Positions 4,508 to 31,717 of a stretch of DNA of 32,878 nucleotides are shown here, one piece after another; the first letter of the stretch is position 1; each line of letters begins with the position of its first letter. The translations under genes and the position numbers were made by a program. The notes under the pieces were generated by a model that was not told where the DNA came from, searched no databases, and worked only from the letters and a program-made list of their open reading frames with translations. The stretch comes from a virus. The stretch lies in the IMG/VR virus record IMGVR_UViG_3300032265_000187, positions 1-32,878 of that record; one strand, given 5' to 3'.

Positions 4508-4542
4508 ATCTAACTCAAATGGTTGATTAAGATAGGTTAATT

Positions 4543-10166: not shown

Positions 10167-10383
10167 GATTTCCTGTAAATGTAGGTTCACTTAGTTTTTT
10201 CCTTTTGGATTGAACAGGTGTTTTAGCATCTTCGGGTCTAATGGCGTATCTATCAACTGCTTCGGTAAGCATACTGACAAGCCCCCATTGCACAAGGGTT
10301 TCAAGTCCTTGCTTGTCAAAAATAACTTCAGCGTTGGCCGAACCATCTTTATTCTCTTTCAGAATCTTTAGCTGTATTTTCAT
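10120..10383 (-). CDS. Unknown protein with basic tail, 87 aa
   Basis: I chose ATG at 10383 over an in-frame TTG three codons upstream. The first half is a small mixed fold (MKIQLKILKENKDGSANAEV, IFDKQGLETLVQWGLVSML). The last ~30 residues are very basic (VQSKRKKLSEPTFTG ... KIGRTRSKK), suggesting nucleic-acid binding. It overlaps the upstream gene by 35 bases. No family is recognised. Confidence 0.6.
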   Translation of the reverse strand: MKIQLKILKENKDGSANAEVIFDKQGLETLVQWGLVSMLTEAVDRYAIRPEDAKTPVQSKRKKLSEPTFTGNLARNTPKIGRTRSKK

Positions 10384-10585
10384 TTTGGGCAAACTTCAAA
10401 ATAGGTTTATCAAGGGCAAGTTTAGCAAGTTCAATGTATCTATCAACTTCTAAACGATCTTCACCGCCAATAGCAGCTTTACTGTGTCCCATAGGTTTCC
10501 CCATAGTGTCGTAAAACACCTCACGGATCTCAAAGTAATCTTCGTAAGGTGAACTCATATTTACTAATCGTAGATTCCAAGTCAT
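10349..10585 (-). CDS. Conserved small phage protein, 78 aa (MTWNLRLV type)
   Basis: This is the first gene of the early leftward operon. The sequence MTWNLRLVNMSSPYEDYFEI-REVFYD followed by GKPMGHSKAAIGGED and LAKLALDKPIL matches a small, common phage/bacterial protein family of unknown function (MTWNYRVV...YYDEDGKP...L..ALDKP). I take ATG at 10585 because GAGG lies 6 bases upstream, in preference to an in-frame TTG at 10597. It follows the early-left promoter with a ~22-base leader. Confidence 0.78.
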   Translation of the reverse strand: MTWNLRLVNMSSPYEDYFEIREVFYDTMGKPMGHSKAAIGGEDRLEVDRYIELAKLALDKPILKFAQNENTAKDSERE

Positions 10586-10605
10586 ATTAGACCTCAATTG
10601 TTAAT

Positions 10606-10642
10606 CTAGGTGAAGTATATGTTAAGTTTACTTAATAGTAAA
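10606..10642 (-). promoter_or_regulatory. Early leftward promoter (PL-like)
   Basis: On the minus strand, -35 TTTACT (10642-10637), a 17-base spacer and -10 TATACT (10619-10614) predict a start near 10607 and a 22-base leader ending at the ATG at 10585. A very A/T-rich stretch (10643-10672) just upstream could act as an UP element. The spacer contains the 14-bp palindrome listed separately, so bound repressor would block RNA polymerase. Confidence 0.75.
10622..10635. promoter_or_regulatory. Operator palindrome in the PL-like promoter
   Basis: TTAAGTTTACTTAA is an inverted repeat (TTAAGT/ACTTAA around 2 bases) lying wholly between the -35 and -10 of the early leftward promoter. It matches the perfect palindrome at 13211-13224 at 11 of 14 positions and shares its outer TTAA...TTAA arms. 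Confidence 0.72.
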
Positions 10643-10939
10643 TATTTTTTATTATCGTTGTTTTTTTGTCAGGATTGCAAGATTCAAGGGCATAGCTATC
10701 CCTACTATGAGGAATAGCTTGTCAGTCTTGCTTAGTTCTGAGGTTTATATATTGCTTCGATGTCTTTGGCGTGTCTAGGTCTGTCTTTATCACATCATCG
10801 GTCTATCCATACAGGACAGTTCTCTTAGATGACCAAGCAATAACGGTCAAATGAGGGTGCATAGCACCTAGTAGTTTCTAGAGTATTTACAGCCTTTACC
10901 GTTGCATCACGCTTGTGAACGGGCTAGATTGTGGGAAAC
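10643..10939. other. Noncoding region with several hairpins
   Basis: No open frame of useful length exists here on either strand. Visible inverted repeats are 10694-10703/10710-10719 (10 pairs; AGCTATYCCT type, fully paired with one G-U if the minus strand is transcribed), 10830-10834/10845-10849 (TGACC/GGTCA), and 10856-10860/10864-10868 (GGTGC/GCACC, 3-base loop). AAAGACA occurs twice about 20 bases apart on the minus strand near 10770-10800. It may be an untranslated RNA, a replication origin or a cis-regulatory region; the sequence does not decide. Confidence 0.5.
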
Positions 10940-11049
10940 AAAAAGGGCTTTAGGGGCAACTCTGTTATCGAACGGCTTGGGAAAATACGCTTGCCCTACT
11001 TTCCTAAACCAACAAAGTCACCTCTAAAGCCCTATTCTGAGTGTTCGAT
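10940..11049 (-). ncRNA. Candidate pseudoknotted RNA/terminator downstream of the repressor gene
   Basis: Three helices can form: P1 10944-10956/11021-11033 (13 positions, 12 paired; one G-U if read on the plus strand, one A-C mismatch on the minus), P2 10974-10984/11000-11010, and a 7-bp helix ATCGAAC 10967-10973 with GTTCGAT 11043-11049, which crosses P1 as a pseudoknot and abuts P2. On the minus strand P1 is followed by TTTTTGTTT, so this may be the repressor transcript's 3' end. Transcription and strand are inferred from context; pairing is seen in the sequence. Confidence 0.5.
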
Positions 11050-11072
11050 TCCTCAATATAGATAAGTATACA

Positions 11073-11303
11073 TCAATCTATCTCAGGCCATATCATTTTG
11101 TAAGAAAGTGGAAAAAGCTGCTTTCTAGACCATAAACCGTGTGATTCCTTTTCTAATGTGGCAGCTAGGATCACCAGCTTGTCATAAGGAATAACCCCGT
11201 TTTGCCACATAGATACCGCTGGAACGCTTACGCCTACTAGGTTTGCTACTTTTGTAGGGCCACCCAGTAGCGCAATCATTGTTCGTGTTGATGTTTTATC
11301 CAT
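11073..11303 (-). CDS. Cro/YdaS-like repressor, 76 aa
   Basis: This is a small helix-turn-helix protein. Residues 10-40 (IALLGGPTKVANLVGVSVPA-VSMWQNG) are the 'LGG..KvA..lGVs..aVs.W..G.iP' motif of Cro and YdaS regulators, followed by IPYDKLVILAATLE and the C-terminal LFPLSYKMIWPEI that resembles the family's 'R.el.P..y..iWPe'. It probably dimerises and binds the 14-bp palindromes on the early promoters. No SD precedes the ATG; the predicted transcript starts at the ATG itself. No second (CI-type) repressor is present. Confidence 0.85.
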   Translation of the reverse strand: MDKTSTRTMIALLGGPTKVANLVGVSVPAVSMWQNGVIPYDKLVILAATLEKESHGLWSRKQLFPLSYKMIWPEID

Positions 11304-11316
11304 TCAGCTATCTTAA
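11303..11316. promoter_or_regulatory. Operator-like site at the repressor promoter
   Basis: The minus strand reads TTAAGATAGCTGAA, 12 of 14 matches to the perfect palindrome TTAAGCTAGCTTAA at 13211. It overlaps the -10 and the predicted start, so binding would repress the repressor's own gene. The two mismatches suggest weaker binding than at the early promoters. Confidence 0.55.
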
Positions 11317-11337
11317 CATTTTTACAACAATTTGCAA
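11303..11337 (-). promoter_or_regulatory. Repressor promoter giving a leaderless mRNA
   Basis: On the minus strand, -35 TTGCAA (11337-11332), a 16-base spacer and -10 TAAGAT (11315-11310) place the transcription start about 7 bases downstream, at or next to the A of the repressor ATG (11303). No ribosome-binding site is seen upstream of the ATG, which fits a leaderless message, as for lambda cI made from PRM. The promoter sequence is moderately good. Confidence 0.55.
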
Positions 11338-11345
11338 ATAAACTA

Positions 11346-11374
11346 TTGCAATCCTAATTAACCTAGCTTAATAT
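11346..11374 (+). promoter_or_regulatory. Early rightward promoter (PR-like)
   Basis: TTGCAA (11346-11351), a 17-base spacer and TAATAT (11369-11374) predict a start near 11381. It lies back to back with the repressor promoter, the two -35 elements being 8 bases apart (both TTGCAA). AGGAG at about 11404 serves the gene at 11415. Confidence 0.72.
11358..11371. promoter_or_regulatory. Operator palindrome in the PR-like promoter
   Basis: TTAACCTAGCTTAA differs from the perfect palindrome at 13211-13224 at a single base. It overlaps the spacer and first half of the -10 of the early rightward promoter. Confidence 0.72.
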
Positions 11375-11380
11375 CTAAGT

Positions 11381-11394
11381 ACGGCATAAGCCGT
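11381..11394 (+). promoter_or_regulatory. 5'-terminal hairpin of the first rightward transcript
   Basis: ACGGC-ATAA-GCCGT forms a 5-bp stem with a 4-base loop. Its first base is at the predicted transcription start, so the mRNA would begin inside the stem. This is the classic arrangement for protecting mRNA from 5'-end-dependent RNase E/RppH decay. Confidence 0.55.
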
Positions 11395-11414
11395 GATAAC
11401 TAGGAGAAACTCAA

Positions 11415-11657
11415 ATGAGTGAACAAGAGCAAGACTTCAATAGCTTCCAAGAGCATTTGGAACGCATCTTTAAAGACTTAGACGATGGAATGATGCTTAC
11501 TGCCGATGAAATTGGTGATTTGCGTTATGCCTGTGGTCTACCATCCCCAGTAAGAAATACCCATGTCAACCCTGTATTGCTTGATGTTATTAATGACTTT
11601 GGCAATTGTTTTGGCAACCCTTTAAACAATTTTCCTAAAATTTGGAGTAAAAAATGA
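11415..11657 (+). CDS. Unknown early protein, 80 aa
   Basis: This is the first gene of the early rightward operon, with AGGAG 8 bases before the ATG. The protein is acidic and helical at the start (MSEQEQDFNSFQEHLERIFK, DLDDGMMLTADEIGDLRYAC), then Asn/Pro-rich. ADEIGDLRYACGLPSP has the look of a short helix-turn segment but no family is recognised. The stop overlaps the SSB start (ATGA). First position under repressor control suggests an early regulatory or host-interaction role, which is inference. Confidence 0.7.
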   Translation: MSEQEQDFNSFQEHLERIFKDLDDGMMLTADEIGDLRYACGLPSPVRNTHVNPVLLDVINDFGNCFGNPLNNFPKIWSKK

Positions 11658-12268
11658 TTATTAGCGATAACAGTAAAGAATTTAAAATAGCCCCAGCAGG
11701 GAATCACATGGCACGGTTGTATTCAGTCATTGATTTGGGTCATCAAGCTACCGAATGGGCTGGCGAAACCAAGATTATGCACAAAGTCGTATTGACTTGG
11801 GAGTTGCACGGTAAAGACGATAACGATGCGCCATTGACTACAGATGACGGCAAGCCGTTGATTGTTTCTAAGCGTTATACCGTTAGCCTTGGTGAGCAAG
11901 CACGGTTACGCCAAGACCTTGAAGCATGGTCTAACAAGAAAATGACTGCTGAAGATCGTAAGAACTTTGACCTTAAAAACCTATTAGGCAAGTTTTGTAT
12001 GGTCAATATCACGCATAGTGAAGATGGCCGTTACGCTAATATTTCAGGCATTAGCCCTGTACCGTCAGCCCTTAGAGCGCACCAGCCTGAAGCTATTAAC
12101 CCTGTAGTTCATTTTTGGTTGGCTGAGTTCGATCAAGCTAAATATGATGCGCTGCCTAAGTATTACCGTGAAAAGATTACGGAAAGCAGCGAATGGCGTG
12201 GTCAGAAGGCTAAAGAAGAAAACAAAGTGACTATTGAAGATAGCGACTTAAGCGATATACCTTTCTGA
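11654..12268 (+). CDS. Single-stranded DNA-binding protein, 204 aa
   Basis: The body (residues ~10-140) has the beta-strand pattern of phage OB-fold SSBs (AGNHMARLYSVIDLGHQATE, MHKVVLTWELHG, LIVSKRYTVSLGE, LLGKFCMVNITHSEDGRYAN-ISGISPVP). The C-terminus ends in EDSDLSDIPF, an acidic tip closely matching the DDDIPF tail of bacterial SSB, which binds partner proteins of replication and repair. It protects ssDNA and can recruit host SSB partners. It lies one base overlapped with the exonuclease (TGATG). Confidence 0.85.
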   Translation: MIISDNSKEFKIAPAGNHMARLYSVIDLGHQATEWAGETKIMHKVVLTWELHGKDDNDAPLTTDDGKPLIVSKRYTVSLGEQARLRQDLEAWSNKKMTAEDRKNFDLKNLLGKFCMVNITHSEDGRYANISGISPVPSALRAHQPEAINPVVHFWLAEFDQAKYDALPKYYREKITESSEWRGQKAKEENKVTIEDSDLSDIPF

Positions 12269-13029
12269 TGATAGTTAAAGAAAAAATAGTTGAATCAGGC
12301 CATTGGTATACACGGCAGGGTACTCCTGCCTATACCACCATCGGTAAAACTGGCGAAAGACCTACTACTTTGCGTGATGCAAGGAAAGAAGGGCTTTTGC
12401 CCAGCACTACTACCATCATTAATACCTTGGACAAACAGGGATTGACCAACTGGAAGATGCAACAGGTCTTACTATCCGCTTTAACGCTTCCTAGAGGGCC
12501 TGACGAGCCTGAACAGGAATGGTTAGCTAGGGTAATGAAAGATAGTCGTGAAACGGGCTACCAAGCCGCTAATCGTGGCACGGCAATTCACGGCATTATT
12601 GAAAGTTGGTTTGAACAGGTGTATATGCCTGAGAAGCCACCTTACCTTGATGCCATAGATAAAGTATTAAAAGATACATTTGGCGAACAAGCTTGGCTGT
12701 GTGAGAAATCGTTTGCTCATGCGCTTGGTTATGGTGGGCGTGTAGACCTTATGGCTAAACCTATTAATGGTCAGGGTACGGGTTTCTGTGTTGATTTCAA
12801 AACCAAAGATACCGATTTAGACAAGGTTGATGTATATTTTGAGCATGAATTACAGTTATCTAGTTATAGAGAAGGACTAGGCTTGCCCAACGCACGGTGC
12901 GCCATAGTATTTGTCAATGGCACGACTAACCAAGTAAAATTAGTAGAAATAGAAGAACCCCAGCTTCAAAAGAGTTGGGAGTGCTTCCAGCACTTGTTAC
13001 GGGTCTATCAGATCAAGAACAACTTGTAG
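12268..13029 (+). CDS. PD-(D/E)XK exonuclease (RecB/Cas4-like), 253 aa
   Basis: Catalytic signatures appear in order: GTAIHGIIE (H108), GGRVDLM (D160), CVDFKTK (D176, K178) and ELQLSSY (Q196, Y200, the QxxxY motif of RecB/Cas4/lambda-exo relatives). It likely resects dsDNA ends to produce 3' overhangs for recombination, working with the SSB encoded upstream. No annealase (RecT, Erf, Red-beta) is recognised next to it. The start ATG overlaps the SSB stop. Confidence 0.87.
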   Translation: MIVKEKIVESGHWYTRQGTPAYTTIGKTGERPTTLRDARKEGLLPSTTTIINTLDKQGLTNWKMQQVLLSALTLPRGPDEPEQEWLARVMKDSRETGYQAANRGTAIHGIIESWFEQVYMPEKPPYLDAIDKVLKDTFGEQAWLCEKSFAHALGYGGRVDLMAKPINGQGTGFCVDFKTKDTDLDKVDVYFEHELQLSSYREGLGLPNARCAIVFVNGTTNQVKLVEIEEPQLQKSWECFQHLLRVYQIKNNL

Positions 13030-13201
13030 TAACGGGGGAAAGCATCACGGAGCGAGTACCCCACTCTTTTTAGGGCGTTAAGCCGCCATTGTAGGATGCA
13101 GTAAGTTAGGGCTTTTGCGGCTTTCTACCTAACAGCTAATAACTGCCAAATACAGCCCTGTCTCTTTTTTGCAACTTAGGGTTTTCCTTAGATAAAAAGC
13201 A
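13030..13201 (+). other. Noncoding 3' region of the exonuclease gene with overlapping helices
   Basis: There are no open frames here. Two helices overlap: AAGCCGC/GCGGCTT (13080-13086/13117-13123) and GTTAGG/CCTAAC (13105-13110/13128-13133), which can form either alternative hairpins or an H-type pseudoknot. GGGG...CCCC (around 13036-13062) followed by TTTTT (~13067-13071) is a weak possible terminator. The region ends at the promoter at 13202. Confidence 0.4.
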
Positions 13202-13230
13202 TTGACAATGTTAAGCTAGCTTAATATACT
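13202..13230 (+). promoter_or_regulatory. Second early rightward promoter (near-consensus sigma70)
   Basis: TTGACA (perfect -35, 13202-13207), a 17-base spacer and TATACT (13225-13230) form the strongest promoter in the window. T-rich and A-rich runs upstream (13163-13200) could add UP-element activity. It should drive the genes from 13273 to 14811. Confidence 0.85.
13211..13224. promoter_or_regulatory. Perfect operator palindrome in the second rightward promoter
   Basis: TTAAGCTAGCTTAA is an exact 14-bp palindrome that fills the spacer between -35 and -10. It is the best example of the site found at the other three early promoters, so it is likely the highest-affinity repressor site. Confidence 0.8.
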
Positions 13231-13236
13231 AGAGTT

Positions 13237-13251
13237 ACTCCATTGGGGAGT
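13237..13251 (+). promoter_or_regulatory. 5'-terminal hairpin of the second rightward transcript
   Basis: ACTCC-ATTGG-GGAGT forms a 5-bp stem starting exactly at the predicted +1 (7 bases below the -10), the same arrangement as at 11381-11394 but with a different sequence. The AAGGAG ribosome-binding site for the next gene lies downstream at 13261-13266. Confidence 0.55.
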
Positions 13252-13272: not shown

Positions 13273-13497
13273 ATGAAATACAAATTAAATGTTGATAAAG
13301 ATGTAGATGTTTCAGGCGATGGTGAAACATATATGTTGTGGTTACCATTTGGCTATAGGTTTTCAGATGACCTAGTTCACACTAGAGGCTTTGACACCAT
13401 GCAAGAAGTCCGAGATGCTGCAAAAAATGATGTTATCTCATGCGACTGCGATGATTGCAAAAAAAGCATTGAACACATGAAAAAGAAATTTGGCTAA
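13273..13497 (+). CDS. Unknown early protein, 74 aa
   Basis: The start is ATG at 13273, 6 bases after AAGGAG, rather than the in-frame TTG at 13243 that lies inside the leader hairpin. The product is MKYKLNVDKDVDVSGDGETY, then MLWLPFGYRFSDDLVHTRGF and a C-terminal segment with four Cys/Asp residues (ISCDCDDCKKSIEHMKKKFG). C-D-C-D-D-C could bind a metal ion. No family is recognised. Confidence 0.7.
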   Translation: MKYKLNVDKDVDVSGDGETYMLWLPFGYRFSDDLVHTRGFDTMQEVRDAAKNDVISCDCDDCKKSIEHMKKKFG

Positions 13498-31262: not shown

Positions 31263-31717
31263 ACGGATTCCTCATCGTCTAGTTCTTCTAGGCGTTTGGC
31301 TTCCATATACATCAATTGCTCTTGTATAAGAGTTTGTTGTTGTCTGTACGCCACCGCTTGAAGGATATTTTCCCTTTGTCTTTCAAGGTAGCTTATAGAC
31401 CGTTGTAAATCTTCTGTTTCAGCCAACGGTATATCAGCTTTAACCTCTTGTTTTGATTGTACTTTAGTTTGCTTAACTTTAGCAACAGGGGATACTAGAT
31501 TACGGATAGCCTGTTTGCGTGATGCATTAGCATTCTTAGTAGTCTTTTCTAATAATCGCTGTCTAGCTGCGATCTTTTGTTGAATCTTTTGTATCCTGCG
31601 GAGTTCTTCTGTTGTATACCAAGCATCATCCCCACCTACCTGTGTATTAGCAGGGGGTATATAGATTTGGAAAGCGTTTACTTGAAACGCATTAGCCTGA
31701 AAAGCCGTTGAAAACAT
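31244..31717 (-). CDS. Helical protein with AFQxNAFQ repeats, 157 aa
   Basis: The N-terminus MFSTAFQANAFQVNAFQIYI has tandem 'AFQ.NAFQ' repeats seen at the start of many small phage proteins next to tail fibres. Residues ~30-150 are charged helices, probably coiled coil (EELRRIQKIQQKIAARQRLL, QRSISYLERQRENILQAVAY). The function is unknown; location after the fibre gene suggests a fibre-attachment or virion role. Its start overlaps the fibre stop (TAATG). Confidence 0.72.
   Translation of the reverse strand: MFSTAFQANAFQVNAFQIYIPPANTQVGGDDAWYTTEELRRIQKIQQKIAARQRLLEKTTKNANASRKQAIRNLVSPVAKVKQTKVQSKQEVKADIPLAETEDLQRSISYLERQRENILQAVAYRQQQTLIQEQLMYMEAKRLEELDDEESVLILLH

Follow-up and report, generated by a model that had tools for sequence, protein, structure and literature searches.

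In Cluster A mycobacteriophages, one repressor acts through several dispersed sites, and joint diversification of the two gives rise to distinct immunity specificities (PMC6550527, PMC9283540). The phages PY54, phiKO2 and N15 carry small Cro proteins with palindromic operators, and the cI and cro mRNAs of PY54 are leaderless (PMC4488713, PMC4997575). In the annotated immC region of P22, operators OL1 (TTAAGACTTCTTAA) and OR3 (TTAAGTCATCTTAA) contain a palindromic core, TTAAG-N4-CTTAA, from which OR1 (TTAAGTGTTCTTTA) departs by one mismatch. Here we analyse the 32,878 nucleotides of the IMG/VR virus record IMGVR_UViG_3300032265_000187 (the window), in which a gene for a 76-residue Cro-like helix-turn-helix (HTH) repressor is accompanied by four sites built on the identical core. 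Because the annotated P22 operators contain TTAAG-N4-CTTAA, the operator type is that of P22. A first-pass annotation of the window knew of no description of this operator set; the set itself is new, and its core has a precedent in P22 OL1 and OR3. Judging from the sequence and its relatives, the 76-residue protein very probably binds the core and blocks three early promoters, as well as its own promoter in one specificity group (group I).

Operators and promoters of the early region

The repressor gene, the four sites and the promoters on which they lie are as follows.

11073-11303, minus strand: 76-residue Cro-like HTH repressor; recognition helix at residues 27-33 (V-P-A-V-S-M-W)
10622-10635: left operator TTAAGTTTACTTAA, perfect core, in the spacer of the left early promoter
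10642-10614, minus strand: left early promoter, TTTACT-17-TATACT
11316-11303, minus strand: self operator TTAAGATAGCTGAA, containing the repressor -10 and, as its last base, the A of the repressor ATG
11310-11337, minus strand: repressor promoter, TTGCAA-16-TAAGAT (-35 at 11337-11332, -10 at 11315-11310), conserved in relatives
11358-11371: right operator TTAACCTAGCTTAA, in the right promoter spacer and reaching 3 bases into the -10
11346-11374, plus strand: right early promoter, TTGCAA-17-TAATAT, conserved in relatives
13211-13224: downstream operator TTAAGCTAGCTTAA, in the spacer of the downstream early promoter
13202-13230, plus strand: downstream early promoter, TTGACA-17-TATACT

All four site sequences reported at first pass were found in place. 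The promoters could be read directly from the sequence, with three sites within or across 17-base spacers and the fourth over the repressor -10, as had been described. The repressor promoter also has a TG one base upstream of its -10, TAAGAT. Its mRNA is probably leaderless, given the spacing of the self site and -10 to the start codon and the lack of a Shine-Dalgarno sequence.

Searching the whole window with the originally proposed 14-mer, allowing up to three mismatches, gave 30 matches against 24 expected, no enrichment over shuffles. The motif was therefore redefined as TTAAG-N4-CTTAA, which is common to all four sites and was used for all counts. Random sequence of the same dinucleotide make-up is expected to hold 0.07 perfect sites and 2.9 sites with one mismatch or better per genome; the window has two perfect and four one-mismatch sites, four of these six within a 2.6-kb region. 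The reality of the four sites was decided, and confirmed, by their conservation in relatives.

Conservation of the sites among relatives

Scanning IMG/VR with the repressor yielded 243 relatives, from which 80 loci were kept and 79 used for site counts. The remaining locus, L071, was set aside for an insertion ahead of its repressor: about 300 bp (match L071:5049-5264) lie between the self operator and the repressor gene, with operators at +327 and +361. Conservation had been set beforehand as a test of the proposal. Counting only loci whose contig covers the position in question, the left site was occupied in 64/64, the self site in 78/78, the right site in 76/76 and the downstream site in 49/50, the single exception having its site at the opposite contig end (G004:152). 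The core of the right site is nearly always perfect. A second test set beforehand, that the sites should not be frequent elsewhere, was likewise passed: all 205 perfect cores in the 79 loci fall in the four zones, and none occurs in the other parts of the 625,598 bases.

The left site varies freely in its four central bases (16 variants). Its distance from the repressor start is anywhere between 641 and 2059 bp, depending on which genes (PAPS-reductase-like, DUF5672 or HNH-like) have been inserted. In some relatives, PAPS-reductase-like (PF01507) and DUF5672 genes stand directly behind the repressor gene (L010:6224-7545), probably on one transcript with it. Comparison at the level of DNA similarity with named phages gave no match. 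Two named but uncharacterised phages, MW202674 and MW202520, encode repressors 46-51% identical to that of the window and keep the sites, some with one mismatch.

Recognition helix and operator vary together

In some relatives with a genome of the same kind, TTAAG-N4-CTTAA is entirely missing, and in these the recognition helix of the repressor differs. The helix reads SV[P/A]AVSMW in 80/80 group I loci and [ST]QAAVTHW in 17 loci that form a sister group, group II. The two groups differ at positions 27, 28, 31 and 32 (V, P, S and M replaced by Q, A, T and H), while A29, V30 and W33 are constant. The four variable positions are those that face outward and contact bases in the 434 and P22 repressors. 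At the right (+69), left and downstream positions, the 17 group II loci carry TTTAG-N4-CTAAA.

Each motif is nearly confined to its own group. In 632 kb of group I loci there are 207 perfect sites of the group I motif and one of the group II motif; in 118 kb of group II loci the counts are one and 30, respectively. An unbiased palindrome scan over all 5-base half-sites with any spacer from 0 to 10 ranked TTAAG-N4-CTTAA first in group I (145 occurrences, 58/59 distinct loci); in group II the top rank went to TTTAG-N4-CTAAA (26 occurrences, 15/15 loci). Between the groups the operator alone changes, with the flanking promoter parts, leader hairpin and ribosome site held constant. Since the changed helix comes with a matching one-letter change in the half-site, repressor and sites appear to have evolved together. 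Repressors of a third group (L112 type) gave no clear palindrome, with too few distinct loci.

This co-variation, together with the similarity to P22 Cro, supports the first-pass assignment of the sites to the 76-residue protein. The palindromes might instead be targets of a host regulator or another phage regulator, and one relative, G008, does carry an additional HTH_3 gene. We regard this as very improbable: motif identity tracks the recognition helix of the 76-residue protein across groups, group I has a site on the promoter of the repressor itself, and the other genomes searched gave no second HTH_3 regulator.

Resemblance to Cro proteins was judged from several comparisons. The repressor falls in the PHROG category of transcription regulators and has a weak YdaS match; it comes just short of the cut-off of the Pfam family P22_Cro (PF14549), against which the MW202674 and MW202520 repressors score 39.7 and 38.2 bits. 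An AlphaFold2 model (mean confidence score, pLDDT, 82.7) places the HTH helices at residues 16-23 and 27-33, and its Foldseek neighbours include Xfaso-1 Cro, YdaS, P22 c2 and P22 Cro.

Several observations weigh against repression of the early promoters and its own promoter by a P22-Cro-like protein. The window repressor itself scores 29.9 bits against PF14549, 0.3 bit short of the cut-off of 30.2, and the Foldseek E-values are weak (best 0.08, none at or below 0.001). The relatives are non-independent samples, with which limit selection on both half-sites is the simplest reading of the conservation. In group II, the right site is exact or has one mismatch in one lineage and is more divergent in the other. 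The self site is absent from group II, so autoregulation would be a feature of group I rather than a constant part of the system. The earlier proposal that the repressor controls itself would thus apply to group I, where the operator lies on its own promoter in every covered locus, and not universally.

Proposed role of the repressor

We propose that a repressor dimer binds the palindrome TTAAG-N4-CTTAA and would occlude RNA polymerase at the left, right and downstream promoters; in group I it would also block its own promoter, giving negative autoregulation. In the most likely role, the early genes would be switched on at once upon infection, and accumulating repressor would then shut off both early operons and the downstream cargo module. 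The self site would cap the level of repressor.

The protein might instead be a true immunity repressor, maintaining a latent state without integration and conferring superinfection immunity, with groups I and II heteroimmune. It occupies a CI-like place next to divergent promoters, from which it is predicted to act on the early operons. Moreover, the specificity groups have diversified on a common backbone (they share the left gene, the leader module and the RNA elements), as expected under immunity selection, and in some relatives cargo genes lie directly behind the repressor gene. Diversification of specificity counts against a purely lytic role, because in mycobacteriophages it accompanies immunity (PMC6550527). 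Set against this, searches of 21-23 genomes, whose records may be incomplete, found no tyrosine integrase, S24 CI, ParA or serine recombinase, which makes lysogeny conjectural. A scan of one genome per species (84,980 species) found close relatives only on contigs of metagenome-assembled genomes (MAGs), not in an isolate. The missing lysogeny genes and the confinement of relatives to MAG contigs favour Cro-like early shut-off in a non-integrating phage, and we hold an immunity function to be possible but doubtful.

Genes and leaders of the early operons

The features flanking the left and right promoters are listed here.

10349-10585, minus strand: leading gene of the left operon, a member of the MTWNLRL family, start at an internal ATG
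11381-11394, plus strand: right leader hairpin ACGGCATAAGCCGT (ACGGC-N4-GCCGT), with which the right transcript begins; conserved
11415-13029, plus strand: right operon, with an 80-residue open reading frame, a phrog_862 protein and an exonuclease (phrog_298)

In almost every relative the gene driven by the left promoter is of the MTWNLRL family, of which 67 members fall into one cluster. In the right leader it is the hairpin rather than its sequence that seems to be kept, because L170 has a pair-preserving change (ACAGC..GCTGT) and L166 and L167 have unrelated stems in the same place.

The downstream promoter as a portable module

The downstream promoter is followed by its own leader.

13237-13251, plus strand: downstream leader hairpin ACTCCATTGGGGAGT, then the ribosome site AAAGGAG
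13273-13497, plus strand: cargo gene of 74 residues, function not assigned

Across about 50 genomes the promoter, operator, leader hairpin and ribosome site are constant, and the cargo comes from more than 20 unrelated protein clusters. The hairpin has pair-preserving variants (ACTCC..GGAGT, ACTTC..GAAGT and ACTCG..CGAGT). On this comparison, the downstream promoter is a portable module before varying cargo genes. The first-pass annotation had described an extra downstream early promoter; the promoter with its operator stands, and is now read as a cassette. A few genomes (L024, L065, L071, L073 and others) have the module twice, the additional copy being on the left side and carrying other cargo.

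A further palindrome, TAGGG-N4/5-CCCTA, occurs upstream of the -35 of the downstream promoter (about 13169-13190) and, in many relatives, upstream of the left promoter. It may be a site for another factor.

Candidate additional sites

An element at 4527-4540, TTAACYTATCTTAA, raised the question of whether the regulon reaches the late genes through a fifth, weaker operator. The element is one mismatch from the core, lies just upstream of a terS-like gene (start 4507) beside a TANAAT -10-like box, and is conserved in about 70 relatives. It is, however, conserved whatever the specificity of the repressor: it is unchanged in L146, L158, L161 and L205, which have a repressor of other specificity and no TTAAG-N4-CTTAA sites, and is kept as TTAATATATCTTAA in L112. 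Most relatives share a single constant mismatch in its left half, and the element is followed by a second conserved block, CAACYACTTG. We therefore excluded it as an operator and consider an extension of the regulon to late genes improbable. Since phages without group I operators keep the element, it probably serves some other purpose, as a promoter or in packaging. The whole conserved block at terS reads TANAAT-TTAACYTATCTTAAT-CAACYACTTG, possibly a late promoter or packaging signal.

Two other candidates were rejected. The site at 31463-31476, TTTAGTTTGCTTAA, recurs in many genomes but lies within a coding stretch that is conserved as a whole at the nucleotide level. A putative second left operator at 10601-10614 has three mismatches, and its palindrome is not kept in relatives.

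Structured RNAs between the repressor gene and left promoter

The noncoding stretch from the repressor gene to the left promoter has two parts, a terminator-like hairpin and then an RNA element. The long hairpin (about 10940-11035, minus strand) directly follows the repressor gene, ends in a U run and is preceded by a TATACT box. Two sequence types of this hairpin occur, and either can be found with either of the two RNAs described below, as if modules recombine.

The first RNA element (10655-10928, minus strand, about 272 nt; also L027:6362-6632 and L010:7689-7960) is 80-95% identical in relatives, with 39 matches in the loci at hand, window copies included. It is syntenic with the repressor and left operator. 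Covariation is strong: twelve of its 47 pairs are changed on both sides, which none of 500 shuffles reaches, and 99.5% of cells are paired. Of 45 newly fetched loci in a pattern scan with the element, 43 led back to the repressor and two were cut by a contig end. Other relatives have a second element of about 230 nt in the same slot (L002:2416-2640 and about 45 other loci), in which 20 of 49 pairs have changes on both sides. When viral contigs were scanned with a pattern for this second element, the pattern was too strict and gave no matches. Neither element has an Rfam match above thresholds or a match in the phage collection. EGFOA RNA (RF02955) was rejected as an identity for the noncoding element, scoring 22.3 bits against a cut-off of 37.7 with no match in relatives. 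The two alternating elements look like new structured RNA classes.

In its most far-reaching form, the system would be a complete heteroimmunity system of integrase-less phages under one Cro-like repressor of 76 residues. Two operator alphabets, with a single base-pair difference in each half-site, would have switched together with four helix residues across common-backbone promoters, and the repressor would be linked to one of two alternative structured RNAs, maybe part of the control. We think this full picture unlikely.

Comparison with known systems

For a group of uncultured phages represented by metagenome contigs, the locus allows the entire early regulon to be read from sequence. It offers a natural experiment in protein-DNA co-evolution, in which two phage groups differ at four exposed helix positions and, at several promoters simultaneously, by a single base pair in each half-site, and raises the question of why repressor specificity diversifies in phages without a recognisable integrase. 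The portable repressed-promoter module marks early accessory genes and could serve as a flag for host-takeover or counter-defence genes.

As in Cluster A mycobacteriophages, there is one repressor with several dispersed sites and joint diversification. The mycobacteriophage stoperators are numerous and asymmetric and may lie off promoters to stop elongation, whereas here there are four palindromes, all at promoters, and no perfect site was found within genes away from promoters in 626 kb. The Cro proteins of PY54, phiKO2 and N15 share the small size and palindromic operators, and PY54 has leaderless mRNAs, as is probable for the window repressor; there, however, each Cro has a prophage repressor (CI/CB) to oppose, no such opponent being seen here, and PY54 Cro has just one binding site. 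A family resemblance, including a C-terminal IWPE motif, extends to YdaS and CP-933P Cro (PDB 8C7K, 8CO2; PMC8630535). YdaS adjoins YdaT in a cryptic prophage region, while no YdaT-like partner was noticed here, no search having been aimed at one.

The arrangement is not that of a lambdoid CI/Cro pair with triple operators: no S24 peptidase match was found in 21 genomes, an extra HTH_3 gene occurs in one genome only, and there is one site per promoter. As expected of the P22 Cro family, the repressor is a small single-domain HTH protein without an S24 peptidase domain. The likeness to P22 lies in the operators over the early left, early right and repressor promoters and in a helix pattern, GxS..A[VI]S.W, common to the window repressor, P22 Cro and P22 c2. 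P22 has three sites per promoter, in contrast to one here, and its c2 is a 216-residue two-domain protein, whereas in the window phages one Cro-like regulator was found and no S24-type C2/CI or integrase. The window phages also have an additional operator on the downstream cargo promoter. Taken together, the sequence comparisons give good support to a system that combines a P22-type operator with a Cro-type repressor in a reduced form, with a single protein, one site for each promoter and two specificities that co-vary.

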